Assembly (NCBI RefSeq): GCF_000832065.1
Contig: NZ_JXQM01000015.1
Location: forward strand, 1-53,401
DNA from: Nitrosospira sp. NpAV
Lineage (GTDB): Bacteria > Pseudomonadota > Gammaproteobacteria > Burkholderiales > Nitrosomonadaceae
Length of the DNA stretch: 53,401 nt
Direction of reading: 5' to 3'
Positions 18,155 through 53,401 of the stretch are shown here, piece by piece. Position numbers and translations under genes: made by a program. The notes beneath the pieces are model-generated. The model made no database searches, was not told the DNA's origin, and saw only the letters and a list, made by a program, of their open reading frames with translations. Within the stretch, counting starts at the first letter, position 1; every line of letters begins with the position of its first letter.

Positions 18155-18880
18155 CTAACGTGAATCCGGCCGGTGGCGCAGCTCCACGAGATGCGCCAGA
18201 CCGAAATGAATGAAAGCCAGGGCCGCCAGTACGGGTGCGAACAGATTGAGAAACGGTACAAATTGTACCAGACCGGTCAGTAGGCCCAGGGCCCAAAGTG
18301 ACGGGCGGCAGGATAAAAATATTGCCCGCATCTCTTCGCGGCGAGCGTGCTCCGCGAGCGCATCATAACGGAATAGACGCTGGTTCAAATACGCCGCGGC
18401 GATAAATGGGACAATCACCCCCGCGCCGACCAGCCACAATGGAATGGTAACAAGCCATATGGCGATAAAGATGCCGACCGCGAGCAGGGCGTTGAGCAAG
18501 CTGCCTGCGATGCCGCCGCTGTTTTCTCGTTCAAGTTGCGGATAATCGCGATCTGCCACCAGATGAACCAAGGCCGGCATGGCGAATAAGGCGGTAATCA
18601 CTAGCGCCGTAACAAAAACCAGCGGCACAAAAAGAATCAGATGCGCCACACCCTGTATTCCATAGGCAATCCATCTGGGTTCCACGCCTTCGAGCCAAGT
18701 TTGAATGCCAATCGCCGTGAGACCGCTTGCGATCCATTCCGAGAAAGTGCTCCAGAAAACCACACCCAGAATCAGCCACAGCAGAGCTGCCACCAGGATT
18801 GGCCAGATGACAATCCACAAAACCTGAAACCGGAATAAATCGCGGAAAGCGCACGAAAGCGCCTCGAATACAGGAATCAT
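18155..18880 (-). CDS. EI24-domain inner membrane protein
   Basis: A 241-residue integral membrane protein with about five to six hydrophobic segments (around 20-45, 78-105, 125-165 and 190-225), matching the EI24/CysZ-like family. CysZ relatives transport sulfate, but the family is broad and no substrate is implied here. Conserved features are the YLNQRLFRYDALAEHA segment and the LVQFVPFLNLFAPVLAALAFIH terminal helices. It starts at ATG 18880 with GGAGAG upstream, 27 bases after the exported protein gene, near the end of the run of minus-strand genes from 28,229. Confidence 0.78.
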   Translation of the reverse strand: MIPVFEALSCAFRDLFRFQVLWIVIWPILVAALLWLILGVVFWSTFSEWIASGLTAIGIQTWLEGVEPRWIAYGIQGVAHLILFVPLVFVTALVITALFAMPALVHLVADRDYPQLERENSGGIAGSLLNALLAVGIFIAIWLVTIPLWLVGAGVIVPFIAAAYLNQRLFRYDALAEHARREEMRAIFLSCRPSLWALGLLTGLVQFVPFLNLFAPVLAALAFIHFGLAHLVELRHRPDSR

Positions 18881-18907
18881 GGATGACTCTCCTTCGCATG
18901 GCGAAAC

Positions 18908-19447
18908 TCATTGAATTCCACTTTCGCATCGCGGATCCGCTTCATAGGCGAATGAGTTGTACCAAGCGGTCCGCTCCCAGATTTCCTTGCATACCTCACC
19001 GCAGACTTCACGCTCGAACCCGCACATCCCACCCAGCTTGAAGCGCGCCGTATAGGCGCCCGCGGCTTCTCCACCTTTAAGCTCGATAATAACCCGTGCG
19101 TTCTGTTCAAAGATGTTCAGTTGATAAGCGTTGGTGAGATCCTGATAGAACTTCCGGGGTATGATGAATTCACTGCCATCGATGGAAACAAGAAAAACCT
19201 CGGTGACAAACCGTGGAATTCCGCCATCCATCCCCCACACGCCCGCGTCCGCCTCGCGGCACTCGCCGCTCTTGCATGGGCGCTCCCTGAACGAAACGGC
19301 AACCCTCTTGCCGGAGGGCAGCACGGATATTTTTTCGTGCACGAATGGAATCATCTGCGTTTGCGCAAGCACGCCCGATGACGCGAGGGACAATGTCACA
19401 GCGAAACCAAGGAATAGTAATTTCAAGCAGTTCACATGACCCAACAT
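18908..19447 (-). CDS. Hypothetical Cys-rich exported protein
   Basis: A 179-residue protein with a signal peptide (residues 1-28, cleavage near VLAQT) and about eight cysteines in the mature part (for example CKSGEC and CGFEREVCGEVC), suggesting disulfides in the periplasm or outside the cell. No known family is recognised. The start at ATG 19447 follows the DUF5675 stop by two bases and has AGGG upstream, so the two genes are almost certainly cotranscribed. It may act with the DUF5675 protein or belong to the kinase operon. Confidence 0.68.
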   Translation of the reverse strand: MLGHVNCLKLLFLGFAVTLSLASSGVLAQTQMIPFVHEKISVLPSGKRVAVSFRERPCKSGECREADAGVWGMDGGIPRFVTEVFLVSIDGSEFIIPRKFYQDLTNAYQLNIFEQNARVIIELKGGEAAGAYTARFKLGGMCGFEREVCGEVCKEIWERTAWYNSFAYEADPRCESGIQ

Positions 19448-19449
19448 TA

Positions 19450-19842
19450 CTACCCTATCTCTATGAATATCTTTTCAGTCTCGGATGCAGTCTTTAATTT
19501 GTTGAAAAGCCGTTCAAAAGCCACTTTACTCTGACCTATGGACCCTTCACCTTTTGTCTCGCCCACCAGTATACATCCCTCCGTATCTGCGGCTGTATTT
19601 CCAGGATGTATCCGCACCCCCTCAAAATTGGGAACGTTCAAAAAAAGTGGAAGCAAGCGTCCAAATCGCTGCGACTGATTGATAACGACCTCGTAGCGTC
19701 CCGCAGGGATGGCTGTCTTCCCCTTGATCTTGACCGGTCTTTCCACATCTTCCAGCGTGTAGCATTCAAATTGATCATTCACGTATAGCTTGCCAATCGT
19801 GCTATCCCCCGAACGATCTGTCCTTTCTACTCGTAGCTCCAT
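19450..19842 (-). CDS. DUF5675 family protein
   Basis: A 130-residue protein. The conserved block contains KTAIPAGRYEVVINQSQRFGR, the VPNFEGVRIHPGN motif and TEGCILVG, the pattern of the DUF5675 family, which is often found near phage tails and secretion loci and resembles an L,D-transpeptidase-like or peptidoglycan-related fold by its HxGN and GC motifs. The function is not proven. It lies 102 bases after the first kinase gene and two bases before an exported Cys-rich protein, so it belongs to the same minus-strand operon. Confidence 0.75.
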   Translation of the reverse strand: MELRVERTDRSGDSTIGKLYVNDQFECYTLEDVERPVKIKGKTAIPAGRYEVVINQSQRFGRLLPLFLNVPNFEGVRIHPGNTAADTEGCILVGETKGEGSIGQSKVAFERLFNKLKTASETEKIFIEIG

Positions 19843-19944: not shown

Positions 19945-21273
19945 CTAGCGGGGACACTTTTCCCGCATCTTTTCCCGGGTAGGGCTTTCTCCGCTGGCCT
20001 TGAGATTTTTATAATCCGCACCGGTCAATACCCAGAATTTCGCTCGTACCGCTTTATCTGTCTCCTTATATCCAGCCTGCTCAAATTCAGCGCTCCTCTC
20101 GGATTCGCTGAGTATCTGATGAACTTTTGCATCCCTGAACGCCGACAATTCATGAAGGGCATTGATGTACTCATTAGAATATTTATTCACGTTAGCGTTG
20201 AGTTCCTGAATTTGCTGCGAAAAACCCTCCACAAATTGAGAGTTGCCGGATTCGACAGCAAGTCCCAGACCTGCTTCCTTTATTTCCAATCTTTTGATTT
20301 CCTGGCAGAACAATGCATATTTATCATTTGACAAGGTAGCCAAACTGCGTATTGCTTTTTCGTTCTGTACGAAATACCAGATTCCTGCCGCAAATAATAT
20401 CGACAAGCTCAAAGCCCAGATTTTCCAGTTCCTGCCGCGCTCATAGGATTCGATAGCTTTAAGAAAAGCGAGACCCCCTTGAAATCTAGCGGCTGGATTC
20501 TTCTGCATTGCCTTGAGCACAATTTCCGCTAACGCTTTTTTGAGCTTGGGATTGATTGCCCGCGGGTTGGGAGGCGGGACGCCGAGATGCTGTTCCTTGA
20601 GTGCTTCCGAGGACGCTCCCTGAAAGGGGAGACGGCCCGTCAGCATCTCGAACAAGAGAATTCCAGCTGAATAGATATCGGACCTGTGGTCGATCTTATC
20701 CGAATCGATGAATTGTTCAGGACTCATGTATTCTGGTGTGCCAATCACGCGGCCCAGCCTGGCGGCACGTTCATCGCCCGCCTGACGCGCAATACCAAAG
20801 TCGGTGAGAAGCGCCCTGTTAGCGCTATCGACCATTACGTTCGAGGCTTTGATATCCCGGTGCAGGATCGCTTTCTCATGCGCGCAATTGAGTCCGGCCA
20901 AGATACCCTTGAAGATGTGCAGCGCCCGTTTCTCCGGCATCGGCCCACCCGGCGAATCAATCATGTCGGCGAGAGAGCGGCCATCGACATACTGAAGAAC
21001 AAGAAAATACTCTTCGCCTTCTTCGAAATAGTCGGACATCTGAACAATATTGGGATGGGAAAGCTGAGCCTGATGCGCCGCCTCCTCATAAAATTGCTGC
21101 TTGAAGTTGGGATTGTGGGTCAACTCCCGCTTAAGGACCTTTATGGCGTATTTTTTATCTCTGACTAAAGCGTTCTCTGCAAGATACACCCGCCCCATGG
21201 CGCCCTCGCCAAGTTTGGAGACGATGGAATAACTGCCATGAATTATCTTGCCGATCAGATCATCATTTTCCAC
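19945..21273 (-). CDS. Hanks-type Ser/Thr protein kinase, membrane-anchored (kinase 1)
   Basis: A 442-residue protein kinase. The kinase domain (about 10-275) is complete: Gly-loop GEGAMG, Lys45, Glu64 in helix C, catalytic HRDIKASN with Asp140, DFG Asp158 and the GTPEYMSPEQ activation segment. A single membrane segment lies at about 283-302, followed by a coiled-coil-rich extracytoplasmic part of 140 residues. The frame reaches GTG 21297, but GTG 21273 has GGGGG seven bases upstream and is preferred. It follows the S41 protease gene by 79 bases. By analogy with PpkA kinases of secretion loci it may phosphorylate FHA-binding partners encoded upstream; this is inference. Confidence 0.9.
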   Translation of the reverse strand: MENDDLIGKIIHGSYSIVSKLGEGAMGRVYLAENALVRDKKYAIKVLKRELTHNPNFKQQFYEEAAHQAQLSHPNIVQMSDYFEEGEEYFLVLQYVDGRSLADMIDSPGGPMPEKRALHIFKGILAGLNCAHEKAILHRDIKASNVMVDSANRALLTDFGIARQAGDERAARLGRVIGTPEYMSPEQFIDSDKIDHRSDIYSAGILLFEMLTGRLPFQGASSEALKEQHLGVPPPNPRAINPKLKKALAEIVLKAMQKNPAARFQGGLAFLKAIESYERGRNWKIWALSLSILFAAGIWYFVQNEKAIRSLATLSNDKYALFCQEIKRLEIKEAGLGLAVESGNSQFVEGFSQQIQELNANVNKYSNEYINALHELSAFRDAKVHQILSESERSAEFEQAGYKETDKAVRAKFWVLTGADYKNLKASGESPTREKMREKCPR

Positions 21274-21352
21274 GTTCAAACCCCCGTGACATTTCACTCG
21301 TGTGGCTGATCGGGAAAATACATCGAGTGCCCGATCAGCCGGGTGGTTCTGC

Positions 21353-22516
21353 CTAATTGATCAAGGCGGCGATTTTGCTGAAAAAAGCTTCTGTGTCGTG
21401 GGTACTTTTCTCGACCCGATGCATGGGCGCCAGCCCGCTACCTTCAAACTGCGTGCCATGGGGAGTTATCAAATATCCCGTTGTCAGAATCAAGGCGCCG
21501 CCATCCTGCAGTTCTATGATGTCCTGCCGGGTTCCTTTTCCGGCAGTTGTTCTGCCAACCGAGGTGCCGCGCACATTTTCGGTTAAAGCGGCGATAAATA
21601 TCTCCCCGGCGCTGGCGGTAAATTCGTCTTGCCATAGGAAAACCCGTTGGGCTGGACGCTGCTTGGCCATCGTCGCGGTATACAACCGCACCCCGGTGCG
21701 GCTACTTACCGAAATAATGGGCTCCCCCCGCTCGAGAAAGAGCATCGAGGCATCCACTGCCGCGTAAAAATCACCGCCGCCGCAGCCTCGCAGATCGATG
21801 ACAATGGCATCCTTCTCACTCCAGCTCGCAAGCAGATGATGGAGTTCCTGTCTGGTATTAGGCGTGAAGTAGGGTAGCTTGATGATGCGCACGGAGCGAA
21901 ATGTATACTCCGAGACTGCCGGGGCAGGTACGGCTGAGCGAGTAACCGTCACTTGCCTTGTAACCCCCGAAAGATCCGCAAGCTCGGCCACGACCTCGGT
22001 TCCTGCCTGGCCCGCCGCCATGGCGGCTACTGCGGGAAGCGATTTTCCGGGTGTGGGAATCCCGTCAAGCGCCAGCAGCCGTTCGCCCGGCTTGATTCCC
22101 GCCAAAGCGGCGGGTCCGTTCGCAACCGGATAACAGATAATGTCGCCATTGCGCCGTTTCTCTATGTCAAGGCCGATACCTGCATAGCGCGAACTACCAA
22201 TCCCCTTGAATTTAATGTATTCCTCAGGAGTCAAGAAATCGGAATAAGGGTCTTCTTGCGCGAGATAGGCCTTCAGGGACGAGGCAACCAGGTCTTGGGT
22301 GTTTCCGGCGGGTGCGGAAAATATCGCACGCTCCTCAATATGTCGCAGCGCTTCGATGTAGCGATGTATTGCCTGTTCGCTCACCTGCGATGATAACGAT
22401 CCCGGCGGCTTGTCTTCGTCAAACCAGGGCAACGAGAGCCTGAACAGATAGCCGCCGAGAAATGAGGCCGTCATAATAAGTAGAATGATCCCTTTATCGA
22501 CATTGAGCCGCGCCAT
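21353..22516 (-). CDS. S41 family C-terminal processing protease with PDZ domain
   Basis: A 387-residue CtpA/Prc-like serine protease. It has an N-terminal membrane segment (about 9-28) that would place it in the periplasm as anchored or exported, a PDZ domain (about 105-192, with AGIGLDIEK and GIKPGERLLALDG) and the S41 catalytic domain. Ser302 in TASAGE and Lys327 in AGKGT form the expected Ser-Lys dyad. The gene sits 12 bases after a coiled-coil lipoprotein gene, within the kinase block, suggesting a role in cleaving envelope proteins of this module. Its substrate is unknown. Confidence 0.88.
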   Translation of the reverse strand: MARLNVDKGIILLIMTASFLGGYLFRLSLPWFDEDKPPGSLSSQVSEQAIHRYIEALRHIEERAIFSAPAGNTQDLVASSLKAYLAQEDPYSDFLTPEEYIKFKGIGSSRYAGIGLDIEKRRNGDIICYPVANGPAALAGIKPGERLLALDGIPTPGKSLPAVAAMAAGQAGTEVVAELADLSGVTRQVTVTRSAVPAPAVSEYTFRSVRIIKLPYFTPNTRQELHHLLASWSEKDAIVIDLRGCGGGDFYAAVDASMLFLERGEPIISVSSRTGVRLYTATMAKQRPAQRVFLWQDEFTASAGEIFIAALTENVRGTSVGRTTAGKGTRQDIIELQDGGALILTTGYLITPHGTQFEGSGLAPMHRVEKSTHDTEAFFSKIAALIN

Positions 22517-22528
22517 ACCGTCACGGAA

Positions 22529-22972
22529 TCAGGAGTGCAGCAGAATATCCAGGGTTTTCGTAATATCTTTCTTCATCGATTCCAGTTTTTCTTGCTTTTG
22601 CGTCTCTGTCATGTTGCTCTGTTCCACCTTGACCAGTTCCTTCTCGTGCGTTTTCAATTTCACCCGTAATCGATCCTTGCGCTCCCGCTGCTCTTTCGTA
22701 TTCTCTGCCGTACTTGCATTGGCTCGCTGTAGCTGCTCCAGCCGTGACTTCAGGTCATCCAGCGATACCTGCTTGGTCGCAAGATCCTTCTTCAATTGGA
22801 TACTTTCTTCGCGCAAGCGGGTTTGCTGCGCTTCTTCTTTTTTTAACTCATTCTCCTTATCGGCTACCAGGACTTCATGCTTTTCCACGTCTTGCTTTAA
22901 GGCCATGACCGTACAGGCACAAAGACTGGGCATAAAAAAAGCGATAAATGCTAGGGATCTGGATGTTGTCAC
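22529..22972 (-). CDS. Hypothetical coiled-coil lipoprotein-like protein
   Basis: A 147-residue protein with a short N-terminal signal segment ending in SLCAC, a possible though imperfect lipobox, followed by a long continuous coiled coil (about 25-135) rich in Lys, Glu and Gln. The longer frame to 23044 lacks a site, while GTG 22972 has AGGAG seven bases upstream and begins the hydrophobic signal. It is 12 bases before the S41 protease and follows another coiled-coil lipoprotein, so both may form an envelope complex or be protease substrates. No family recognised. Confidence 0.65.
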   Translation of the reverse strand: MTTSRSLAFIAFFMPSLCACTVMALKQDVEKHEVLVADKENELKKEEAQQTRLREESIQLKKDLATKQVSLDDLKSRLEQLQRANASTAENTKEQRERKDRLRVKLKTHEKELVKVEQSNMTETQKQEKLESMKKDITKTLDILLHS

Positions 22973-23094
22973 GGGGTGGCTCCTAATTTTTGGCTTGAAC
23001 CCGGATAATCCGCCGGGCGGATCTCCAGACCTATCCGAGTGCACGGTGAGCTCACGGCTGTTATCTCGCGTCCTGATGGTTGGGTTGAACGGAT

Positions 23095-23880: not shown

Positions 23881-24867
23881 TTAAATTGATACGACATAAC
23901 CAATAGCTCCCACGGCGGCAGCCAGGAGGGCAATCATCGCAGCAAATCTCAAGGGTGAGCGGGTGGACACACCCTCCGCAGGCGCCCGTGAGTGTTGCGG
24001 AATTGCCGCAAGCAACAGTCGTGAAAATTCAGCACAACCCTGCGGCCGTTGACCGGGATCTTTACTCAACGCTGACATGATCAGGTTGCTAATGCCCAAT
24101 GGAATGGACGGCTGGCGGCGGTGCGGAGGTACCGGTATCTCTTTAACATGAGCGGCTCGAAGCGCAAGCTCACCTGTTGTCCCGTTTTCTTGTTCGGGGA
24201 CAGTAAATGGCGGCTGTCCGGTCAGCATTGCATATAATACGCAACCTCCGCTGTAGACATCGGTTCTGTGATCGATATTCTCCGGCGTCCGAATTTGTTC
24301 GGGGCTCATGTATTCCGGGGTACCCACGCGCCCGCCGGCACGTGTACGCCTTGCCTCACCCACCGCCAAAGCAATTCCAAAGTCGAGCAGATAGGCATGC
24401 TGCTGCGCATCCAATAAAATATTGGAGGGTTTGACATCCCGATGCAATATGCCATTGCGGTGCGCATAATCAAGAGCGGACAGGACATCGGTAAATATAC
24501 GCACGACAACATCCAAAGGCAGAATGTGATTTGGGGTACGTTCAAGCAGTGCCGCAAGGGATTCCCCTTCGATGAGGTTCATCACCATGCATTGCTGATC
24601 ATTGACGGAAAAGGTATCGATCAGTCGGACGATGTTAGGATGATTCAAGCGTGCATGACGCCGGAGTTCGTCCTCGAAGCGCGCGCTGATGCCGGGATCT
24701 GCAAGCAGACTCTCAGCAACAACTTTTATCGCGACATGCTGGCGGGTTTCTGGATCCCATGCCTTCCAAACGACGGCCATTCCCCCCTTGCCGAGAATAT
24801 GCTCGAGCTGATACTTTCCACAGGCCTGTCCCGCGGAAAAATCGGTTCTTATCGTTCTTGCCATCAT
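23881..24867 (-). CDS. Hanks-type Ser/Thr protein kinase with C-terminal membrane anchor (kinase 2)
   Basis: A 328-residue protein kinase. The domain (about 17-285) shows the loop LGKGGMAVV, Lys48, catalytic HRDVKPSN with Asp144, DFG at 162-164 and GTPEYMSPEQ, so it should be active. A single hydrophobic segment (about 307-326) ends the protein, giving a tail anchor with almost no outer part, unlike kinase 1. The frame runs up to 24927, but the double ATG at 24867/24864 has GAGG upstream and is chosen. It follows the FHA gene by 93 bases. The FHA and PP2C neighbours are the classic partners of such kinases. Confidence 0.9.
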   Translation of the reverse strand: MMARTIRTDFSAGQACGKYQLEHILGKGGMAVVWKAWDPETRQHVAIKVVAESLLADPGISARFEDELRRHARLNHPNIVRLIDTFSVNDQQCMVMNLIEGESLAALLERTPNHILPLDVVVRIFTDVLSALDYAHRNGILHRDVKPSNILLDAQQHAYLLDFGIALAVGEARRTRAGGRVGTPEYMSPEQIRTPENIDHRTDVYSGGCVLYAMLTGQPPFTVPEQENGTTGELALRAAHVKEIPVPPHRRQPSIPLGISNLIMSALSKDPGQRPQGCAEFSRLLLAAIPQHSRAPAEGVSTRSPLRFAAMIALLAAAVGAIGYVVSI

Positions 24868-24960
24868 ACGACTCAACCTCACCCGCTCCCCAATTATGAG
24901 TATGTCGTACAAACAGATTTGACGCACCGGACTGCCAAAACACCCTTATCCGGAATTGCG

Positions 24961-25674
24961 TCAGATTGCAGTTTCACCCGAAGAACGGGGCCTCGGATCA
25001 CCGCGCTCAAAATCTTCCGCGGGTCTGTAACCTTCGGGAGCCCGCTCACTGGTTATTTTTCGAAACTCGAATAGGGATCTTCCGGTTTTGATGATCGCGC
25101 CGTCGGTCAGATCGGCGCCATCCCGTTCAACATATTTCTCGTTGAGAAAAGTGCCATTGGTACTGAGCAAATCATGCAGCTCATCCCGCCCTGCACGGCA
25201 GAGAATCACAGCATGCTCGCCAGACATAATCGGGTCCGTAGTGATCTGCACGTCGCATGATGGGCCGGACCCGATGACATTCCGTCCCTCATAAAGCACG
25301 AACAGTTCGCCCTCGTACCTCCACGAAAACGTCACCACAACCCCGGTGATTCTGCGGTTATGGGGTGCTGATCTGCTTCTGCGCGGCTCCTCGGCGGATT
25401 TTTCGAAAAGTGTGCTGCCGCGTCCTTCTTCTTGCCTCTCGGTTCCCGGGTCTATCTTCGTGGTGGATCGTTCCATTTCTGTACTCCTTCGCGTGGCTTT
25501 ACTTGATTCGACATTCTCGGTATCGGGTATGCGCGCCGTCCTTTGCGTCGCACGTTTTTCTGCGTCACAATAAGCGCAAGTTTCCCAGTTCGGATCCATT
25601 GCGTGGCCCTTCTCGCAAACACGGGTTGAATTACCCGTTTTATCACTTCCAGTAAGCCTGTCCCACAAGCTCAT
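24961..25674 (-). CDS. Zinc-ribbon FHA-domain protein
   Basis: A 237-residue cytosolic protein. The N-terminus has a small zinc-ribbon-like motif (Cys20, Cys33, Cys36, with His24 nearby). A disordered Ser/Thr/Arg-rich linker (about 40-105) follows, and then an FHA domain (about 120-205) with the conserved Gly-Ser, SGEHA and STNGTFLN motifs that bind phosphothreonine. Thr residues in the linker are likely targets of the neighbouring kinases. It starts at ATG 25674 with GAGAGG upstream, between the PP2C and kinase 2 genes. Its role may match Fha/TagH or GarA-like scaffolds, by inference. Confidence 0.85.
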   Translation of the reverse strand: MSLWDRLTGSDKTGNSTRVCEKGHAMDPNWETCAYCDAEKRATQRTARIPDTENVESSKATRRSTEMERSTTKIDPGTERQEEGRGSTLFEKSAEEPRRSRSAPHNRRITGVVVTFSWRYEGELFVLYEGRNVIGSGPSCDVQITTDPIMSGEHAVILCRAGRDELHDLLSTNGTFLNEKYVERDGADLTDGAIIKTGRSLFEFRKITSERAPEGYRPAEDFERGDPRPRSSGETAI

Positions 25675-25742: not shown

Positions 25743-26591
25743 TCAGCTATTTGAAATACCTGGCCGTGCGGTCGCCGCTGAAAGGAGCACAATTCCCGGG
25801 ACGACAATCCCCAAGCGCCCCATAATCCTGGATATCCCACCTTTATCGCCGCCCCCGCACACGATCAACTGTATGGTAATGTTATCCTCGCCTCCTTTCT
25901 CCAAAGCGAGGCTGACAAGTTGACCCGCCAATTCCTGGGGCGCACCCTGATTGCTGAGAACGGCAGCTATTTCAGTATCAGAAACATACCCGTGGAGTCC
26001 ATCCGAGCACAGAAGAACCTGATCTCCCTCCCGTAGCGGAATCCAGGATGAAATGTCGACTTTTATTGTGGGTGAAGTGCCAATCGCGCGCTCCAGAACA
26101 CTTGCCTCAGGATGGACCATGGCCTCAGCGGGCGTCAGAATGCCGGCATCGATCATTCGTTGCACACGGCTATGGTCCTTGGTCAGCCGCTCGAGTTTAT
26201 TCTCACGGGTAAATAAATATGCCCGGCTATCGCCCACATGGGCAACCATAACCTGACATTGAGCCACAAGCAGCACGACAGCAGTGGCGCCCATGCCCTC
26301 CGTGCCGGCATTTCCCGCATGCCCGCGTTCATAAACAACCGCATTTGCCTCTTCGAATGCACCTTTAATGGCATCGGGGCCGATCGAGATGGAGTCGAGA
26401 CTGGACAAACTCTGGTTGAGCGTCTCAACGGTCAACCCAGCTGCAAGTGCGCCACCCCGATGACCTCCCATCCCGTCGGACACGATATATATGTCTCCAA
26501 AGGGCGCTTGCACATAACTCATCCTGTCCTGGTTTTCATTCCGGACGTAGCCTGTTTCGGAGCGCGCGCCCACAGACCATCTTTTTGACAT
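25743..26591 (-). CDS. PP2C-type Ser/Thr protein phosphatase
   Basis: A 282-residue metal-dependent phosphatase, expected to reverse phosphorylation by the two kinases encoded nearby. The PP2C motifs are all present: ARSETGYVRNENQD, YIVSDGMGGH, GMGATAVVLL, VGDSRAYL, LLCSDGLHG and GGEDNITIQLI, including the metal-binding Asp residues. The last 30 residues are moderately hydrophobic and may contact the membrane. The frame could start at GTG 26618 or ATG 26609; ATG 26591 with GAGGAG close upstream and the usual family N-terminus is preferred, though the spacing is short. Confidence 0.9.
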   Translation of the reverse strand: MSKRWSVGARSETGYVRNENQDRMSYVQAPFGDIYIVSDGMGGHRGGALAAGLTVETLNQSLSSLDSISIGPDAIKGAFEEANAVVYERGHAGNAGTEGMGATAVVLLVAQCQVMVAHVGDSRAYLFTRENKLERLTKDHSRVQRMIDAGILTPAEAMVHPEASVLERAIGTSPTIKVDISSWIPLREGDQVLLCSDGLHGYVSDTEIAAVLSNQGAPQELAGQLVSLALEKGGEDNITIQLIVCGGGDKGGISRIMGRLGIVVPGIVLLSAATARPGISNS

Positions 26592-44634: not shown

Positions 44635-45292
44635 GGTGAGTACGCGCCTGCTGGACAATCTGCCCGCTATTTACCGGGCTTCGGATTCCGCCGGACACCT
44701 GCGTCGGCTGCTGGGGATCTTCGAGGAAACGCTCTTCCACGGCGACGGTCGGGAGCTGCCCGGGATTGAGCAGCAAATCGAAACGATACCGGGCCTGTTT
44801 TCCCCACTGGGCAATGACGACGCAGCACCCTTCACCATTGAAAAGACGCCAGACCGGTTTCTGCCCTGGCTGGCGACCTGGGTTGCGTTCACACCGCACG
44901 CGCTATTCACGCCCGAGCAGCTCAGAATCATTATTTCGCGTATTGCCCCGCTTTATGGCAGGCGTGGAACGCGCACCTACCTGGAACAGTTATTAAAAAT
45001 CTGTTTTGATGAAATATCAGAAGTGACAATCGATGACGAGCCCATACAAGGATTGGTAATCGGACAGGCCAAAATCGGCGAAGACACGCTGCTTGGGGGC
45101 GAACGGCCATTTTGGTTCCGCGTCGCCATTGATGCAGGCCGACAGAATTCCGGGTCAAAAATCACGGAATCGCATCATGAATTCGAGCAACGGGTCCGAG
45201 CGATCATCGATTTCGCAAAACCAGGCCATACGACCTATGACCTGCGGTTGCGCTTTTCTTCGCCGGACGAAACGGGTACGCACACAGCGTGA
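44627..45292 (+). CDS. eCIS tail protein I-like baseplate protein
   Basis: A 221-residue phage tail protein I-like component: LLDNLPAIYRASD at the start, FLPWLATWVAFT, RIIISRIAPLYGRRGTRTYLEQLLKICF and the RVRAIIDFAKPGHTTYDLRLRF end. In phage P2, protein I works with J at the baseplate edge; in eCIS it lies after the J genes as here. AGGGGGC precedes ATG 44627, which overlaps the J 2 stop. It is expected to complete the wedge. Confidence 0.87.
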   Translation: MREVSTRLLDNLPAIYRASDSAGHLRRLLGIFEETLFHGDGRELPGIEQQIETIPGLFSPLGNDDAAPFTIEKTPDRFLPWLATWVAFTPHALFTPEQLRIIISRIAPLYGRRGTRTYLEQLLKICFDEISEVTIDDEPIQGLVIGQAKIGEDTLLGGERPFWFRVAIDAGRQNSGSKITESHHEFEQRVRAIIDFAKPGHTTYDLRLRFSSPDETGTHTA

Positions 45293-45347
45293 TTTTCTAT
45301 GACAACAATGCTTGATCGGGAAGGATACCCGCCAGGGGAGAACCAAA

Positions 45348-46340
45348 ATGCGTAAAAAACAACTTATCAGTAAGAAACCAGCCTATTTCCAGGGACAATT
45401 GCTGGATGCAAACGACTTCATCGACGAGCAGAAATATCATGCGAATGAACGCGCACGTCATAGCCTCTATCTCCATGGATCGGGAGTTTTGCGCGGACTG
45501 GACGTAACGCGCGCCAGCGACTCGACGATCAGCATCAGCCCTGGTTTTGCCATTGATGGCAAAGGCCGCGAAATTGCCATCAATCAGGCTGAAATCCTCG
45601 AGCTTTCCGCCTTTCCCCCCTCTTCCCTGCTGCAGATCACCGTGAGTTACGAAACGGAACAGCCCTCTCGAGACCGGTCGCGCATCGAATGCTATGGGGT
45701 ACTGGCTGCTTCGACGGGCATTGAAGAAGCCGCCGTAGTACTGGCAACAGTTCAACTCGACGAACACGGCAAGCTGAAAGCGGAATCGATCAGTACCGCC
45801 ACCCGGCGCCAATTGCGTATCGTGCTTTCGCCGGGCTCGGTAACCGCCGTTGCGTTGGATCCCGGTTTGCGCAAGGGTTGGCTGCGGGTGGCCTTTCGCC
45901 CCATTACAATTCCGCAGGACACCGACCCCAAAGTGGAGCCCCCTCCTCCACCTTTTAGAGTCGGCGCCACGGAAGCGAGAGCGCATAGGGATTTTGACGG
46001 AAAAGCCAATACCAAGGGCGCGGGCGGGACGATGGCGATCCCGTTGCCACCTGGTGTCACGCGTGTCCATCGGCTGAGAGTCGCCGGCCAGGAAAACGAG
46101 AAAAAGATGAAAATCACGCTATTCAGAGGTGGTTGGGATGCCGCCAACAAGAAGCATATCGGTGGCAGGGACGATGCGGCCAACAGACTGGTGGAGGAGG
46201 AAATAGGTAGCGGACCTTATGACAGTACTTACGAAATCAAGGCAGGGGATCTCGATGCCGAGTGCAACACGCTCTCGCTCGATATCAGGAGCACGGGTTA
46301 CATCAGGGTATCGCTCGTTGCCGTGGAAATCTCCTATTAA
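45348..46340 (+). CDS. Conserved eCIS baseplate-associated/fibre-like protein
   Basis: A 330-residue protein of a group often placed after tail protein I in this eCIS lineage. The start YFQGQLLDANDFIDEQKYHANERARHSLYLHGSGVLRGLDV and the following SPGFAIDGKGREIAI are its recognisable core. A Pro-rich hinge (EPPPPPF) near residue 200 leads to a beta-rich C-terminal domain (about 215-330) that could be a receptor-binding or carbohydrate-binding part. No known name applies. ATG 45348 has GGGGAG upstream; the frame start at 45312 is rejected. Confidence 0.72.
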   Translation: MRKKQLISKKPAYFQGQLLDANDFIDEQKYHANERARHSLYLHGSGVLRGLDVTRASDSTISISPGFAIDGKGREIAINQAEILELSAFPPSSLLQITVSYETEQPSRDRSRIECYGVLAASTGIEEAAVVLATVQLDEHGKLKAESISTATRRQLRIVLSPGSVTAVALDPGLRKGWLRVAFRPITIPQDTDPKVEPPPPPFRVGATEARAHRDFDGKANTKGAGGTMAIPLPPGVTRVHRLRVAGQENEKKMKITLFRGGWDAANKKHIGGRDDAANRLVEEEIGSGPYDSTYEIKAGDLDAECNTLSLDIRSTGYIRVSLVAVEISY

Positions 46341-46387: not shown

Positions 46388-48583
46388 ATGCCTGCCTTCA
46401 AAGACTCGTTGGCACACCTCCTCGCCGAGATGGAGCGCATCGATCTGCTCATTCGCCTGCAGATTGCTCGCCGCTGTAAATTGCAAGCCGAAGACGAGCA
46501 GTTCCGAGGCTTGTATATTTCCGAACAGGAGGTTGATGGGCTGCTCCGCAAGCCGCTCGGGATGCCGCAATGGCTCATGCCACAGTCCGGGGGGCCGGCC
46601 GATCCATCCGAGCTAAGCCAGCTTGAGCATCGGATAAGCGCGTGCAAGCAGGAAAGCTTGAGCAAAGGAATCGAGCTGAGGCTTGAGCGGCTCCGGCAGT
46701 TCTTTGAACTGACCCGGTTCGACCTTGATGCCTTGCTGATCTGCATGGCGGTGGAATTGGATCTGCGCTATGAAAGGCTTTATGCATATCTGCAGGATGA
46801 TGTCGCCAGGAAAAAACCCGGCATCGAGCTGGCACTCAATCTACTGGCGCCTTCACTGGAACTGAGCGTCGATGCCAGGCAGCGATTCTCACCGGAAGCC
46901 CCGTTGGTACGCTTCCGGCTTATAGAGCTGCTCGAAGAGCCCCCCCATCTTCCCTCCCCTCTGCTGTCCAGGTTCCTTAAGGCGGATGATCGCATTGTTC
47001 AATATCTGCTGGGCGCCGAAGGACTTGACGAGCGTATTCGCTCCTTCACGGAACTGGCGGATTCGGATCAGGACCTGGATCAACTCCCGTTGGATACGGA
47101 CATCAAAGAGGGATTGATGCGTTTTGCCAACGAGATGCAGCACTCGCCAATGGTGGTCATGCACCTGCAAGGTCCCCATGTCACGGATAAACAGAGTATC
47201 GCCCTGGCGCTATGCCGCCATAGGCATCAGCGCCTGCTGGTGGTCGATGTGGAGCGGCTGGCGGCCGAAGCCGAGCCCGGATTCGGCAAGACCCTGGTCC
47301 TGCTTCACCGCGAGGCTCGCCTGCAACACGCCGCGCTCTTCTGGAAAGGTGTGGAAGCATTGCATAGCGAACAACGCCGCGGCATGCTCATCACTTTCAT
47401 GCAGAACCTGGAACACGGCCCCTCATTGGCTTTCGTCGATGCCGATGCAACACTGGAGTCAGCCCATGCGCTGCGCGGAATCACTTATTTTACCGTTACG
47501 CTTCCGCGGCCAAGCTTCATGCAGCGCGCACAGACATGGCGCAACGCACTGGAAGAATACGAAACCGGTATCGAGCCGCATGATATCGCCGAACTTGCCG
47601 TCAAATTCAAGTTTTCCCACAGTCAGATTGAGAACGCCATGATTACCGCCAGGAATCTTGCACGCTGGCGCGATCCGGATTCGCAACGCATCACCCTGCG
47701 CGACCTTTATGAGGCCTGTCGCGTGCACTCCAATCAGAAGCTGTCGGCGCTGGCTCACAAAATCGCATCCAAGTATCAATGGAATGACATTGTTCTGCCA
47801 CTGGATCGGACCGAACAGCTGCGGGAAATCTGTAACCACGTCAAATATCGGGATCGTGTTTATAGCGAGTGGGGCTTTGACCGGAAGCTGGCAATGGGCA
47901 AAGGACTTTGCGTGCTTTTTGCGGGTCCCTCGGGTACGGGTAAAACCATGTCTGCGGACATCATCGCCGGTGAACTGGGTCTGGATCTTTACAAGATCGA
48001 CCTGTCGACAGTAGTAAGCAAGTACATCGGGGAGACGGAAAAAAACCTGTCACGGATTTTCGATGAAGCCGAAACTTCGAATGCCATCCTTTTTTTCGAT
48101 GAAGCGGATGCATTGTTCGGCAAGCGTAGCGAAGTGAAGGATTCGCACGATCGCTATGCCAACATCGAGACGGGCTACCTGCTCCAGCGCATGGAGGAGC
48201 ACGAAGGCATTGTCATACTGGCAAGCAACTTCCGCAAAAACATGGATGAGGCTTTTGTCCGGCGGTTGCATTTTACCGTTGAATTTCCCTTCCCCGCCGA
48301 AGACGATAGGCGCAGGATCTGGGAAGCTGTCTGGCCGGAAGCGATGCCGCGCGACCCGAACCTGGACATGGCTTTCCTGGCAAAACGTTTTCACGTTACG
48401 GGCGGCAACATCCGGAATATCGCCCTGTCAGCCGCATTCCTGGCAGCGGATGATAATGGCATAGTAGGCATGCAACACCTTATCCGTGCAACTCAGCGCG
48501 AGTATCAGAAAATGGGCAAGCTCGTTTCCGAAAGCGATTTCGGAGTGCCGCCCAAGGACTTCGTTGCGATTGGGAGCCGTTAA
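46388..48583 (+). CDS. eCIS AAA+ ATPase (Pvc15/Afp15-like)
   Basis: A 731-residue protein with an N-terminal helical domain (about 1-210), a degenerate first AAA-like region (about 230-440) and an intact C-terminal AAA+ domain. Walker A GPSGTGKT is at 513-520 with Lys519, Walker B FFDEAD carries Asp571-Glu572, and sensor and arginine-finger segments (ILASNFRKNMDEAFVRRLHF) follow. This matches Pvc15/Afp15, needed for particle assembly or cargo loading. It is the last conserved assembly gene; the DUF4157 genes follow after 119 bases. Confidence 0.93.
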   Translation: MPAFKDSLAHLLAEMERIDLLIRLQIARRCKLQAEDEQFRGLYISEQEVDGLLRKPLGMPQWLMPQSGGPADPSELSQLEHRISACKQESLSKGIELRLERLRQFFELTRFDLDALLICMAVELDLRYERLYAYLQDDVARKKPGIELALNLLAPSLELSVDARQRFSPEAPLVRFRLIELLEEPPHLPSPLLSRFLKADDRIVQYLLGAEGLDERIRSFTELADSDQDLDQLPLDTDIKEGLMRFANEMQHSPMVVMHLQGPHVTDKQSIALALCRHRHQRLLVVDVERLAAEAEPGFGKTLVLLHREARLQHAALFWKGVEALHSEQRRGMLITFMQNLEHGPSLAFVDADATLESAHALRGITYFTVTLPRPSFMQRAQTWRNALEEYETGIEPHDIAELAVKFKFSHSQIENAMITARNLARWRDPDSQRITLRDLYEACRVHSNQKLSALAHKIASKYQWNDIVLPLDRTEQLREICNHVKYRDRVYSEWGFDRKLAMGKGLCVLFAGPSGTGKTMSADIIAGELGLDLYKIDLSTVVSKYIGETEKNLSRIFDEAETSNAILFFDEADALFGKRSEVKDSHDRYANIETGYLLQRMEEHEGIVILASNFRKNMDEAFVRRLHFTVEFPFPAEDDRRRIWEAVWPEAMPRDPNLDMAFLAKRFHVTGGNIRNIALSAAFLAADDNGIVGMQHLIRATQREYQKMGKLVSESDFGVPPKDFVAIGSR

Positions 48584-48702: not shown

Positions 48703-51700
48703 GTGTCCCAACCCCTTCTGACCGAATCACCGGAAAAAGCAAAGCAGAGAACCGAGCGCCGCGAGCCTCACCCCAATTCCACCCGGTCATCTCAAGGTGG
48801 ATTCAATCCAATTCTTCAACTGCAACGAACTTTGGGGAATCAGCGTGTAGCGCAGTTGATCAAAACCAAGCGCCTTACTCCGGAAGGCCGGATTACCGGC
48901 CTTCAGTCCAAGCTTACCGTAGGCGCCGCTGACGACCCATATGAGCGGGAAGCCGACCGCGTCGCCCGCCAAGTGGTGAGCATGCCGGATTCGGTGACCA
49001 TGGCATCCTTCCAGCAAGCGCTCCCGGTAGAAGGAGAAGCCGGCCATACCCAAACTCTGCAAAGCAAGCCCCTGGCCCTGGCCGCTACCATCACTCCGTT
49101 CATGCAACGGCAGGTGCGCAGGGAAGAACCAATAGAAGAAAAAAAGGACCTGGAAGAGGAAAAAGACGAGTTATTGCAGGGGCTTTTCAATAAATCGGTC
49201 ACACTTTCCCTTCAAAAACAGAGAGCCGCTGAGGACGAAAAAACCAACGAGGCGCCGAAAGACGGGAAGCCGGGGATCCGAGCGGCACTCTTAACCGAAA
49301 CCTACCACCCAATGCGGCGCCGGTCCGCAACGGGAGAAGAACCCGAAACAATCCAGGCCAGGCCGGCCGGATCACTGGCCGATAGCTTCGAGGCGGGTGA
49401 CGATGTCGCATCCCAGCTCGCTCAAAGCAAGGGGCAAGGCAATCCGCTACCGGATTCCGTGCGCACTTACATGGAACCGCGGTTCGGGATGGACTTCGGC
49501 CACGTGCGCATCCATACCGGCAGCAATGCCATCCAGATGAACCGGGATATCGGCGCCCATGCCTTCACTCACGGCCTGGACATCTTCTTTGGTGCTGGGA
49601 ATGGTCCCACCAACCTGGAACTTACCGCACATGAATTGACGCATGTAGTGCAGCAAACTGGCGCGCAGCCGCTGCGGAGAAAAGAGAAGGCACCCACTGT
49701 ACATCGTCCGCAGTTATCTCCGCATTCATTTTATATACCCGATATCCCGAGAGACAGCCTGGATCTCCCCACGCCGGAGACCATGAATGACCCTACCGCT
49801 GAGGCATCGGCGATGACAAGCGCCGGCATTGCAAGTCGGACTGGACAGACAGAGCGTGGCATCCCAGCACATGATTCACGCAGTGGCACCGCGCGCCCGG
49901 CAGCAGGCCAGCATGCTTCACCGTTACTGGCTTCCAACTCGCCAACCTCTGCGGAGGGTAAAAAACTTGGGGAGTCATCGGAACCCACGGTGCCGAATGC
50001 AGCTCCATTCGCAATCCCGGATGCCACGAGTCATCAGCCATCAAAAGGTGGCAACGAGCTAACGCCGGAAGTCGTTGCCGGCTCTGCATCCGGGACGTTA
50101 CGGACCGATATTGGCACGGAAAAGCCGGGGGGCGCCGGATCTCCTGGGATGGGGCAGATTACGGCTGCTCCAGATTCCCCCCTCAAGCCTCACGCAATAG
50201 CACAGGCGCAGCTCATCAACAACGATTGCCTGCAAAGTGAAACCCAGGTCGCTCGAAGCGCGGCAACGCGCCGGCAACAGATAAGCGGACAATTTTCTGG
50301 CGTACGTCGAGAGCTCTCGGGCTTCCTAACCAAATCTATCGCCGGTGTGCGGACTCTTGTCATCACAAAGCAATCCGAAATTATCACAGCGTCGGCCCGA
50401 ACCCTCGGCGCGATCCAGATGGGTATCATGAGCGCGTTGCAAGCAGCGGAAGCGCAAAGCGACGAACTTCGCGAGGAAATAAACGGGGTTATCGAAAGCG
50501 TTACCGCTTCGGTACAGGAAAGAGTCGGAGGGATCGCGAACCAGATTGTCGATGTGATCAACGTCATACCATTCCCGGATCTTCCTGGTGTCGCGCAGAT
50601 ACGGGACGCGGCGGTAAATCTTTTGAGACGGGCAGCTGGGGTGGTCAATGGCGCAGTCGGGCAGATCCTTGGATTTGTTCGTTCGGCCTTCAACATGGGA
50701 ATGAATTTACTGGGTTCATTCTTGCGCATTTTCAGGCAACTGATCGATCAGGCACTCGCGCTCGCTTCATCGGCGATTCAGCGCATTATGCAATTGGTCT
50801 TTCAGGCGCTGAATCAACTATTGAATCTCATCGTTTCAACCTTGGAAAATGTTTTGTCCAGTGCCATTACACCTCTGCTCAACCAGCTGGAGGCATTGAT
50901 GACTCAGGCAATTTCCACTGCGGAGCAACAGACGCTCGCGCAGATACGAGCCAACAAGGCGCAGCACCTCGAGGTATTGGCTTCAGCGGTCGATCCTGCT
51001 GCTGGCGGCGGAGAAGCAGGTCCGACGGCGAAGAATAAAGCTGCCTCGATGGACGACAGCATTGCGGCAATCAGGGAAATCGGCTTGAACGCTATTCAGA
51101 ACAATCGAGTGATTATCCAGTCTTTCGAGGAACAGACATCCTCAATCGCTGTGTTGATCTTTCAACGGCTGGCTGCCACAGCCGGACAGATTATGCAGGA
51201 AATCGCGGCCCGAATCGCTCAGGCTATAGAAATTATTGTAAGTAAGGTCACCCAGGTCATTCAGAGCTTCTCGCAGTTAACGCAAGCCGTTCTCGCTTTC
51301 ATCCAGTCCTTGATTCAGGCATGGACTGCCGCGCTAAGTCGCATTGTGGAGTATGTACGTTCGCTTGCCCAAAGTCCTGTCGATCAGATCGTTGAATTTG
51401 CCCAGAGAACCTTGAGCCGAATGAGAGAGTTTATTGGCCGCCTCATCCGGAATTTCATCAGCAGCGGCGGCAGCATAGTCGCCAGCATCTCGGAAATTGC
51501 GGGCGATTTCAAGGTTACGCCCTCCTTCCTGGGCCCGGCTCCGGCCTTTGCCGGACCGCCGATTCAGATCATCGGAGGACTCATTATTATTCTCATAGCC
51601 GGAGTGGCCTACGTTCTTCCGTTATGGGCGGGAATCGTCATTCTGGTGGTCGTCGTACTGCTGCTGCTGCTCCTCCTGTACCTGCTTTATCGATGGATAT

Positions 51701-52281
51701 TCAAGCCACCTCCAGTCAAACCTCCGCCTCCGCCCCCACCGCCGCCATGCCCCCTGCCCGTCAATGTCCGGAATGGACCCTTCCACCAGCCGATTGACGA
51801 GCCGACCAAGGTGGGTATGGAGATCGCGATCACAATCAGTTCATCGACCGGTGTCGATGCCGACATGGCGACGATATTGGACAGCGAACAGGTAAGTCTT
51901 TCATTTAACCATACCGGGTCATTTGCCGGACTGCCGCCATTCCCATCGAACAATAGCGGGTTCATGCCGGGATTTCCCATACCGAACGACAGACATACAT
52001 CGTCACGATCACTGATTACCGATCGGGCGGACAACCATGGTGGCAACGGTAGTTTCAACAGGCATCAATTGGATATTTTTATGGCTCCTGCATGCGGTGT
52101 TCCCGCCCCGCAGGCAATCCCCGACTCCGGTTATCTGATCAAACGTATCATTACCGTCGGGCCGGGAACTCAAATTTCTTTTCGGATAGAAAAAAGCCCG
52201 GCTGCCTGTACCGTCAATGGATTTTCGACAACTGCGGGACCATCGCCGACGCAGGGTGACGATGTGATCGTAAGACCTTAG
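48703..52281 (+). CDS. DUF4157 (eCIS core) protein with helical region and membrane hairpin
   Basis: A 1192-residue likely cargo or eCIS-associated protein. Residues 36-95 hold a conserved leader (ILQLQRTLGNQRV and GAADDPYEREADRVARQV), then the DUF4157 domain (about 246-320) with LPDSVRTYMEPRFGMDFGHVRIHTG and zincin-like motif HELTH at 310-314. A disordered linker (320-500), long amphipathic helices (about 500-935), a strong membrane hairpin (about 955-1000), a poly-Pro hinge (about 1002-1017) and a beta-rich C-terminal domain follow. The GTG start has AAAGGA upstream. The form suggests a membrane-inserting effector, or a tape-measure-like part; activity is unknown. Confidence 0.85.
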   Translation: MSQPLLTESPEKAKQRTERREPHPNSTRSSQGGFNPILQLQRTLGNQRVAQLIKTKRLTPEGRITGLQSKLTVGAADDPYEREADRVARQVVSMPDSVTMASFQQALPVEGEAGHTQTLQSKPLALAATITPFMQRQVRREEPIEEKKDLEEEKDELLQGLFNKSVTLSLQKQRAAEDEKTNEAPKDGKPGIRAALLTETYHPMRRRSATGEEPETIQARPAGSLADSFEAGDDVASQLAQSKGQGNPLPDSVRTYMEPRFGMDFGHVRIHTGSNAIQMNRDIGAHAFTHGLDIFFGAGNGPTNLELTAHELTHVVQQTGAQPLRRKEKAPTVHRPQLSPHSFYIPDIPRDSLDLPTPETMNDPTAEASAMTSAGIASRTGQTERGIPAHDSRSGTARPAAGQHASPLLASNSPTSAEGKKLGESSEPTVPNAAPFAIPDATSHQPSKGGNELTPEVVAGSASGTLRTDIGTEKPGGAGSPGMGQITAAPDSPLKPHAIAQAQLINNDCLQSETQVARSAATRRQQISGQFSGVRRELSGFLTKSIAGVRTLVITKQSEIITASARTLGAIQMGIMSALQAAEAQSDELREEINGVIESVTASVQERVGGIANQIVDVINVIPFPDLPGVAQIRDAAVNLLRRAAGVVNGAVGQILGFVRSAFNMGMNLLGSFLRIFRQLIDQALALASSAIQRIMQLVFQALNQLLNLIVSTLENVLSSAITPLLNQLEALMTQAISTAEQQTLAQIRANKAQHLEVLASAVDPAAGGGEAGPTAKNKAASMDDSIAAIREIGLNAIQNNRVIIQSFEEQTSSIAVLIFQRLAATAGQIMQEIAARIAQAIEIIVSKVTQVIQSFSQLTQAVLAFIQSLIQAWTAALSRIVEYVRSLAQSPVDQIVEFAQRTLSRMREFIGRLIRNFISSGGSIVASISEIAGDFKVTPSFLGPAPAFAGPPIQIIGGLIIILIAGVAYVLPLWAGIVILVVVVLLLLLLLYLLYRWIFKPPPVKPPPPPPPPPCPLPVNVRNGPFHQPIDEPTKVGMEIAITISSSTGVDADMATILDSEQVSLSFNHTGSFAGLPPFPSNNSGFMPGFPIPNDRHTSSRSLITDRADNHGGNGSFNRHQLDIFMAPACGVPAPQAIPDSGYLIKRIITVGPGTQISFRIEKSPAACTVNGFSTTAGPSPTQGDDVIVRP

Positions 52282-52290
52282 GAGACGAGA

Positions 52291-52800
52291 GTGGATTCCG
52301 CCAGTGAGCTGGGCCTGTTCATTCGCGAGGACGGCCGCATTCTTCCGGCCACTGCCGAGGACGAAGAGGTCGCTCGAAGCTATCCGATATTTCCGGATAA
52401 GGGCGCTCTCGTAGCCGGCTACCGGCTCACTATCCTCACCCGAAGCTTCACGATCCATACAGGTGACCCTATCCATATCATTCATGTTTGCGAGGCTGTC
52501 CTCCCGGATTCACTGTTATATGTCATGGGTCCCAAGCCGGTCCATGATGAGTACGTGAACGGCATTCTCTCGACCACGGCACTGCCCCCAGGCGAGCATC
52601 CCCTGGCACCATCGTCATATGATGGCCGAACCGTCGAGGGCCCCGCTGTCGACTACAATTATGAAATTACGCAATATCGGTTCGAGCGGCCGGGAACATA
52701 TTTGATCCAGTGGCGCCCAGGAATACTTGTATCCAACACGCTCAGGCTACAAGTCACCGCCCATACGGTTCACCGCAATTCGCGCACGTTAAAAACTTGA
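52291..52800 (+). CDS. Hypothetical companion of the DUF4157 protein
   Basis: A 169-residue protein without signal peptide, with GTG start at 52291 and GGAG upstream, nine bases after the DUF4157 gene. The sequence is beta-rich (SFTIHTGDPIHIIHVCEAV, YEITQYRFERPGTYLIQWRPGILVSNTLRLQVTAH), like an Ig- or C2-type sandwich. No family is recognised. Position suggests a partner of the large DUF4157 protein: a chaperone, a second subunit or an immunity protein. Confidence 0.65.
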   Translation: MDSASELGLFIREDGRILPATAEDEEVARSYPIFPDKGALVAGYRLTILTRSFTIHTGDPIHIIHVCEAVLPDSLLYVMGPKPVHDEYVNGILSTTALPPGEHPLAPSSYDGRTVEGPAVDYNYEITQYRFERPGTYLIQWRPGILVSNTLRLQVTAHTVHRNSRTLKT

Positions 52801-52874
52801 CACTACCAACGTATCGACTATTTTTAGATTATGAATTGGCGATGGCGGATAGCCGCCAGAGGAGTTTCGGGTTT

Positions 52875-53401
52875 ATGTCTCAACAAATATCCTCCAGGTC
52901 ACCTCCGGGAACAAAACAGCGAATCGTGCAGCATGCGCCGAGTTCCCCTTCTCCTTGCCCTTTCCAGAGTGGGATTTCCTCCCCCATTCTCCAACTGCAA
53001 CGAACACTGGGCAACCAGCGTGTGACACAATTGATTCGAGCCCGGCGCCTCACGCCACAAGGCGGGATTATCGGCCTGCAGCCCAAGCTGACGGTCGGGG
53101 CAGCAGACGACCAATACGAGCAGGAAGCCGACCGCGTTGCCCGCCAGGTGATGACCATGCCCATACCGGATACCCCCTCGAATTCGATGCGACGTGTCAC
53201 TGCGCCGCAAGACACGCTCGAGGAAAAAACTGTCGAAGAAGACGAGGATAATATTCTGCAAACCCGGCCGCTAAGTGCCTCCATCACCTCCCTGACCCAG
53301 CGGCAAGCGCAAGAAGAGAAGGACGCCGAAACGCCCCGGACCGGCTCTGCCGGATCGCTGGCCGACAGCTTCGAGGTGGGAGAGGACGTCGAATCCCGTC
53401 T
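52875..53401 (+). CDS. Second DUF4157-type protein, 5' part (cut by window end)
   Basis: An ATG at 52875 opens a frame that continues past the window end (175 codons seen). Residues 38-95 repeat the leader of the first DUF4157 protein nearly word for word: PILQLQRTLGNQRV, a KLTVGAADD segment and EADRVARQV, and the AGSLADSFE motif also recurs. The DUF4157 metallo-motif would lie beyond the end. Shorter ORFs in other frames here are shadows. It is likely another cargo protein sharing the same loading region. Confidence 0.82.
   Translation, partial: MSQQISSRSPPGTKQRIVQHAPSSPSPCPFQSGISSPILQLQRTLGNQRVTQLIRARRLTPQGGIIGLQPKLTVGAADDQYEQEADRVARQVMTMPIPDTPSNSMRRVTAPQDTLEEKTVEEDEDNILQTRPLSASITSLTQRQAQEEKDAETPRTGSAGSLADSFEVGEDVESR

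Follow-up and report, generated by a model that had tools for sequence, protein, structure and literature searches.

An island of Nitrosospira that probably joins an extracellular contractile injection system to a sigma-54 switch and a Ser/Thr phosphorylation module

A genomic island of Nitrosospira sp. NpAV probably combines an extracellular contractile injection system (eCIS) with a dedicated control circuit, in which a sigma-54 switch would be shared and signalling proteins would gate the eCIS. The stretch of DNA analysed, the window, has 53,401 nucleotides (contig NZ_JXQM01000015.1, positions 1 to 53,401 of the forward strand, assembly GCF_000832065.1) and contains two divergent operons, a signalling block at 19945-28244 on the minus strand and the eCIS at 29094-53401 on the plus strand. 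The original prediction, made from the DNA letters, had a contractile injection operon diverging from a block with Hanks kinase, PP2C and FHA genes, and this is confirmed by Pfam domains on both strands. From 29094 the plus strand encodes Pvc16_N, two sheaths, two gp19-type tubes, CIS_tube-LysM, hub, spike, gp25, baseplate J, AAA+ and eCIS_core proteins, and the minus strand, from 28244 to 19945, encodes VWA-FHA, PP2C and FHA proteins, two Pkinase proteins (K1 and K2) and an S41-PDZ protease. By its gene content, with these parts and an eCIS_core protein in one operon, the machine is classed as an Afp/PVC-like eCIS. The locus extends past the window, and a sigma-54 activator gene, a DUF4280 gene and cysS sit on contig C250 of the same genome.

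Distribution of the island and replacement of its machine

In the carrier genus, Nitrosospira/Nitrosovibrio, genome comparison finds the machine, the block and the activator present together, absent together and co-located at two chromosomal sites. Full-length VWA-FHA occurs in seven of 23 genus genomes (G000, G004, G005, G011, G016, G019, and G022), each time adjoining an eCIS, which is of the same type in six islands and of a different type in G019 (Nitrosovibrio sp. Nv6); none was found apart from an eCIS, which supports the suggested link between the two operons. The gene order VWA-FHA, PP2C, FHA, lipoprotein-like protein, small envelope protein, S41 protease, K2 is kept beside the eCIS in all seven, so that every block gene other than K1 held its place in this neighbourhood comparison. 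Among 399 sampled genomes of the order, VWA-FHA was matched at E <= 1e-30 in two only, both of this genus. When 84,980 species genomes were scanned by pattern, five near-full-length matches came back, all from this genus, and one FHA-only match; the scan is not exhaustive, as the copy of G022 was not returned. A second, partial VWA-FHA-like gene (VWA part, 48% identity) lies just past the activator in one island (G011:C12:160249-161307).

A closed empty site was found in 14 of the 16 block-free genomes. In 12 of them CysZ, a 179-amino-acid (aa) gene, DUF5675, and cysS are adjacent, with DUF5675 directly beside cysS, and in two (G017 and G020) CysZ adjoins cysS, the 179-aa gene and DUF5675 not being found there. 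About 5.2 kb separates DUF5675 from cysS in G003, and the contig ends at the site in G018. The first three of these genes, which occupy 18155-19842 of the window, are also present at the empty site of island-free genomes; they are therefore core genes flanking the island, and the block begins at kinase K2 (19945). The predicted extent of 18155-53401 thus holds from 19945 onward. In G022 the island lies at the second chromosomal site (3.09 Mb) with a DUF5675 copy beside K2, its own cysZ-cysS site being closed, and in G005 the segment from CysZ to the activator appears inverted. G003, G012, and G014 have distant sheath matches, around which the 20 kb fetched contains no block and no activator.

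The Nv6 island (G019) is a natural case in which the machine was exchanged and the switch stayed the same. It holds an eCIS of another type in place of the usual one, but has kept the block, promoter, palindromes, activator and the C-terminal domain of the fibre. The AAA+ protein of the incoming eCIS shares 80% identity with its G014 counterpart; the sheath of this eCIS is 48-52% identical over the whole length to the sheaths of G340, G026, G012, and G014. The first gene of this eCIS starts 185 bp past the conserved box, which has a palindrome 155 bp upstream. In the 1.5 kb upstream of the related eCIS sheath in G012, G014, and G026, no box scoring >=11 and no exact palindrome was detected. 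The last 169 aa of the old fibre (73% identity) form the C-terminus of a DUF6519 protein (L083:9384-11372), an apparent recombination joint; the kept stretch is the end of this fusion and not, as first supposed, a separate leftover of the earlier fibre gene. For the fibre and the 875-aa protein of the window, comparison with sequences of solved structures gave no match at E <= 1, and a structure model of the fibre (mean pLDDT 49.5; 50 listed fold matches with TM-score <=0.28) was left unused.

The divergent promoter region and its activator

Sigma-54-type promoters had been predicted in both directions, and the boxes do recur in the same intergenic region in all seven related islands. The region between VWA-FHA and the eCIS is 0.7-2.0 kb long and, in alignment, otherwise poorly conserved; in the window it covers 28245-29093. 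The eCIS-facing box matches the consensus exactly (28888-28903) and the block-facing box has one mismatch (28307-28322). A scan of the whole window allowing <=1 mismatch gave 12 sites against 9.6 expected, no more than chance, and conservation across islands was used for this reason. Boxes facing both ways score 12-14 of 14 in 7/7 islands (p <= 0.017 each against 300 resampled sequences), values that are descriptive only, because the consensus used for scoring was drawn up with the boxes already known.

An 18-bp palindrome, TGGGT-N8-ACCCA, was first noticed in the intergenic alignment. Exact copies number 12 in the seven intergenic regions (7.1 kb, where the motif was discovered), two in 417 kb elsewhere (six islands with flanks) and two in 1.47 Mb of 40 control eCIS loci. 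A copy stands 140-167 bp upstream of the eCIS-facing box in 7/7 islands and 153-172 bp upstream of the block-facing box in five. Sequence and conservation thus give a putative -24/-12 box with a candidate upstream activator site. Extra exact palindromes were seen before an outlying eCIS_core gene in G022 (G022:C1:3134965), where a weak sigma-54-like box follows after 64 bp, and in G019, with no convincing sigma-54 box nearby.

The island-encoded activator (366 aa) has a Sigma54_activat AAA+ domain and a Fis-type helix-turn-helix and gives no receiver match. Its orthologues, 70-80% identical, occur in the six other islands and nowhere else in the genus, where the next best match is 52%. The gene is within the fetched island locus in six cases and at C250:87574-88674 in NpAV, and lies <=3 kb from cysS in six of seven (C250 included), the exception being G022, with no cysS in the fetched stretch. 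The recognition helix KERRA[LF]GKLLKKH is common to 7/7, almost unchanged. The NpAV genome has one rpoN (sigma-54 factor) match and three strong sigma-54 activator matches. Paralogous activators (48-52%) occur in G003, G007, G008, G009, G010, G013, and G014, all island-free; they were considered as alternative eCIS activators and rejected, as the 20 kb around them contained no eCIS-part match in any of the seven. The conserved boxes, the near-fixed palindrome spacing and the island-encoded activator support shared sigma-54 control, and they point strongly to an activator that binds the palindromes and, with RpoN, opens both operons.

The control set was drawn from 57 Pvc16_N matches; without two of this genus and four weak ones 51 were left, of which 40 were compared over up to 20 kb on each side, less at contig ends. 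With the same tblastn queries, these 40 loci gave no Hanks kinase, no FHA and no VWA-FHA match, the kinase queries being able to detect T6SS-type (type VI secretion system) kinases at ~1e-50 and FHA detection being weaker. One locus had a PP2C match (G036, E 4e-6), and 12 had a sigma-54 activator. Six of these activators are short and carry GAFTDA or GAYTDA; five of the six lie 1.3-4.3 kb from eCIS genes and one lies 19.7 kb away. The other six are longer, with GAFTGA, GSFTGA or GAFTTA. Examples of short receiver-less activators beside eCIS in other genera are G281:C32:48113-48276 and those of G058, G109, G202, and G255.

Close activator relatives (E <= 1e-85) occur in 33 of the 399 order genomes (34 matches), and 18 of the 33 also have a Pvc16_N or CIS_tube match, which 52 genomes have in all (Fisher p 1.7e-9; 16/31 and p 2.9e-8 without the two genus members). 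Twelve of the 18 lie within 50 kb of Pvc16 (seven within 6 kb), five are distant or lie on a different contig, and the last is the C250 gene of NpAV. Box-palindrome pairs with <=2 mismatches number four in the eight control loci that have a close activator relative within ~35 kb (278 kb; in two of the eight the relative is outside the fetched stretch), and one in the other 32 (1194 kb). Their spacings are 61-149 bp, and the pair of G281, exact and spaced by 145 bp, faces the Pvc16 gene. Since such relatives also stand next to eCIS of other genera, sigma-54 may control eCIS more widely than in this genus.

The phosphorylation proteins and the weighing of explanations

The two Pkinase genes of the block are the only ones in the 3.45 Mb genome. 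K2 has one transmembrane (TM) segment at about residues 293-311 and a C-terminal part beyond it; its catalytic motifs are intact in 7/7 islands. The five motifs checked in PP2C are likewise kept in 7/7, with exceptions in one motif (Glu to Gly in G019; Ile to Val in G019 and G022), so K2 and PP2C both look active. Hydropathy and a structure model (mean pLDDT 66.5) place the VWA domain of VWA-FHA between two membrane segments, predicted outside, and the FHA domain after the second, predicted inside. K2, the two lipoprotein-like proteins and the S41 protease have a membrane segment or a periplasmic look, judged from the N-termini for the last three. The coordinates of these and the other features are given in Table 1. 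An additional Pkinase match lies within the eCIS cargo region of one island (G016:C48:26813-27607). The genus also contains a true T6SS threonine phosphorylation locus (G021:C1:2122000-2141999, L094) with T6SS_FHA_C, IcmF, two kinases, PP2C and a Gly-zipper protein; similar kinase/PP2C matches occur in G012, G014 (C14), and G005 (C17), the family scan having covered the G021 locus alone.

Table 1. Features of the window, with strand and basis or remark
Feature	Position	Strand	Basis or remark
K2, Hanks Ser/Thr kinase, island edge	19945..21297	-	Pkinase 5.6e-53; 7/7 islands; edge from empty site
S41 (CtpA-like) protease, PDZ, N-terminal TM	21353..22516	-	7/7 islands
Small envelope protein, possible lipoprotein (by eye)	22529..23044	-	hydrophobic segment with Cys; synteny 7/7 islands
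Lipoprotein-like protein, Gly-rich segment	23095..23748	-	N-terminal hydrophobic segment with ITGC, lipobox by eye; 7/7
K1, tail-anchored Hanks Ser/Thr kinase	23881..24927	-	Pkinase 2.4e-53; TM 328-346; 3/7 islands
FHA protein	24961..25674	-	FHA 5.2e-13; usual FHA Arg is Ser (Lys in G022)
PP2C phosphatase, Stp1-like	25743..26618	-	just under Stp1 family cut-off
VWA-FHA protein: TM, VWA, TM, FHA	26640..28244	-	genus-restricted in searches made
Sigma-54-type box facing signalling operon, TCGGCATGGAACTTGCTC	28306..28323	-	equivalent in 7/7 islands
Candidate enhancer palindrome	28490..28507	.	166 bp upstream of signalling-facing box; equivalent (153-172 bp) 5/7
Candidate enhancer palindrome	28713..28730	.	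156 bp upstream of eCIS-facing box; equivalent (140-167 bp) 7/7
Sigma-54-type box facing eCIS, TTGGCATGGATGTTGCAT	28887..28904	+	equivalent in 7/7 islands
Pvc16_N-domain eCIS protein	29094..29693	+	Pfam
Small eCIS-operon protein, CarboxypepD_reg-like	29690..30100	+	match below family cut-off
Sheath 1	30111..31832	+	Pfam
Sheath 2	31866..33206	+	Pfam
Tube 1 (gp19-like)	33229..33678	+	Pfam
Tail assembly chaperone-like protein	33675..34043	+	phrog_508, 3e-8
Tube 2 (gp19-like)	34216..34710	+	Pfam
875-aa protein, ends conserved, middle variable	34750..37377	+	no family match
CIS_tube-LysM protein	37368..38090	+	Pfam
Hub (GPD-like)	38105..39178	+	Pfam
Spike (OB domain)	39103..39798	+	Pfam
gp25-like baseplate wedge protein	39892..40308	+	Pfam
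Baseplate J-like protein	40305..43322	+	Pfam
Second baseplate J-like protein	43453..44634	+	weak match, below cut-off
eCIS-operon protein without family match	44627..45292	+	conserved, 6 same-type islands
Tail-fibre-like protein, CIS13-type N-part	45312..46340	+	below family cut-off; C-terminal domain kept in G019 swapped eCIS
AAA+ ATPase, Pvc15-type position	46388..48583	+	Pfam
eCIS_core protein, candidate cargo	48703..52281	+	Pfam
Small protein between eCIS_core genes	52291..52800	+	no family; matches in G004, G011
Gene start resembling part of C250 eCIS_core protein	52710..53401	+	runs off contig

The proposed explanation joins these parts into a concrete switch with an activator, a probable binding site and two promoters. 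The receiver-less activator would bind the TGGGT-N8-ACCCA palindromes and with RpoN open both divergent operons, and machine and signalling proteins would therefore be made together. We infer that an envelope-spanning complex, with the VWA domain, lipoproteins and S41 protease outside and the FHA domains, PP2C and kinase inside, may then exert phosphorylation control over the eCIS. Such a complex would sense an envelope signal, and K2 and PP2C would set the phosphorylation of a target, for which an FHA protein, the activator or some part of the baseplate are candidates; this would gate assembly, docking or release of the eCIS, as the threonine phosphorylation pathway gates some T6SS. It is rather doubtful that the eCIS goes further and acts in a T6SS-like manner, with particles produced when needed, which the VWA-FHA/lipoprotein complex would keep at the envelope until a disturbance signal from K2 leads to firing or release; the fibre C-terminal domain retained in Nv6 would then meet the complex, rather than being only a target-binding tip.

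Several observations weigh against the proposed circuit. The phospho-Thr-binding signature of FHA domains consists of Arg, Ser, His, and Asn, and the usual Arg is gone from both FHA domains in 7/7 islands (VWA-FHA has Ala or Ser instead; the FHA protein has Ser, with Lys in G022), Ser, His, and Asn being kept. K1 is present in G000, G011, and G016 only and missing in four of seven, and the metal-site motif of VWA domains is missing from VWA-FHA of G022. The block-facing box lacks a palindrome within 260 bp in G011, and in G016 its only one is 232 bp away. The activator loop reads GAFTDA in 7/7, not GAFTGA; GAFTDA or GAYTDA is also found in the six activator relatives from other eCIS loci. In G012 and G014, relatives of the swapped eCIS are accompanied by neither the block nor the activator across the 20 kb fetched; the circuit is therefore dispensable for this type of machine. 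Mirror-tree correlations (r 0.83 for block-eCIS, 0.82 for eCIS-core and 0.64 for block-core; ten pairs, five genomes) fail to separate linkage from vertical descent, and the range originally proposed took in the three core genes.

Some of these points favour shared expression only, in which activator and sigma-54 co-induce the operons and the phosphorylation proteins serve another envelope task, such as stress or self-protection during production, without acting on the eCIS. The conserved DNA signals point solely to co-expression, and the altered FHA domains and the block-free relatives in G012 and G014 fit as well. This explanation is nevertheless considered somewhat unlikely, given that block and machine occur together at two different sites, that the block stayed through the machine swap, and that the genome has no other Pkinase genes. 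Vertical descent, which explains much of the co-evolution, would suit a block that is functionally unrelated cargo of an eCIS-carrying island. A mere passenger is improbable in view of the shared divergent promoter region with palindromes ahead of both boxes in 5/7, of a block gene order (minus K1) kept in 7/7 and retained when the eCIS was replaced, and of a full VWA-FHA never found apart from an eCIS in the scans made.

The same kinds of parts, and a T6SS-type kinase/FHA/PP2C locus within the genus (G021), could also suggest a decayed or hijacked T6SS phosphorylation pathway that in truth acts on a T6SS encoded at another place in the genome. The G021 locus, however, is a separate gene set, with kinases 27-37% identical to K1 or K2 and with T6SS_FHA_C and IcmF, and G005 carries both the eCIS block and, on another contig, a kinase/PP2C locus of similar identity. 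VWA-FHA and the FHA protein give no T6SS_FHA_C match and are far below the NCBIfam TagH cut-off, no IcmF match was found among the 30 proteins scanned around block and eCIS, and the proteins scanned around the block gave no match to an ABC transporter either. Since T6SS_FHA_C is absent from both FHA proteins and IcmF was not found, the block is not considered a member of the T6SS phosphorylation pathway, and this origin is very improbable. The preferred explanation remains the eCIS with its dedicated circuit, and the phosphorylation module suggests post-translational gating of an eCIS.

Comparison with known contractile systems

How eCIS without conserved regulators are controlled is described as unclear in a review (PMC10598620). 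Among the matches listed, judged from titles and the starts of abstracts and with subscription journals mostly outside coverage, no report linked an eCIS to sigma-54/RpoN or to a circuit of Hanks kinase, FHA and PP2C. By title and abstract start, the six papers found to name both a contractile injection system and RpoN deal with T6SS or Xanthomonas. In the eCIS survey of Geller et al. (2021), regulator genes adjoin the operons, as here, but those named there are GerE, BTAD, and RfaH, sometimes with a histidine kinase; the term sigma has no occurrence in the main text available (PMC8213781).

An Sfa2-type activator is encoded within the T6SS cluster in the H2-T6SS. This Pseudomonas aeruginosa system, under RpoN and Sfa2, is likewise a contractile machine under sigma-54 with an activator (PMC8855297). 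The machine here differs in being an eCIS, and its activator is without an N-terminal regulatory domain and apparently shared by both divergent operons. In the T6SS threonine phosphorylation pathway the VWA domain is joined to the kinase PpkA, whereas in the island it is joined to FHA, and the FHA Arg is missing here. In that pathway, PpkA is switched on by a signal from the envelope, Fha becomes phosphorylated and PppA undoes this; as with PpkA/PppA/Fha and TagQRST, the island encodes a membrane-anchored Hanks kinase, PP2C, FHA and outer or periplasmic sensor-like proteins together with a contractile machine (PMC10482370). Unlike in the T6SS pathway, the machine is an eCIS and the block shares with it an island-encoded sigma-54 activator. 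Some ammonia oxidisers would thus carry, in one island, a phage-tail-like machine, its own switch and a membrane-linked phosphorylation set, a wiring better known from T6SS.

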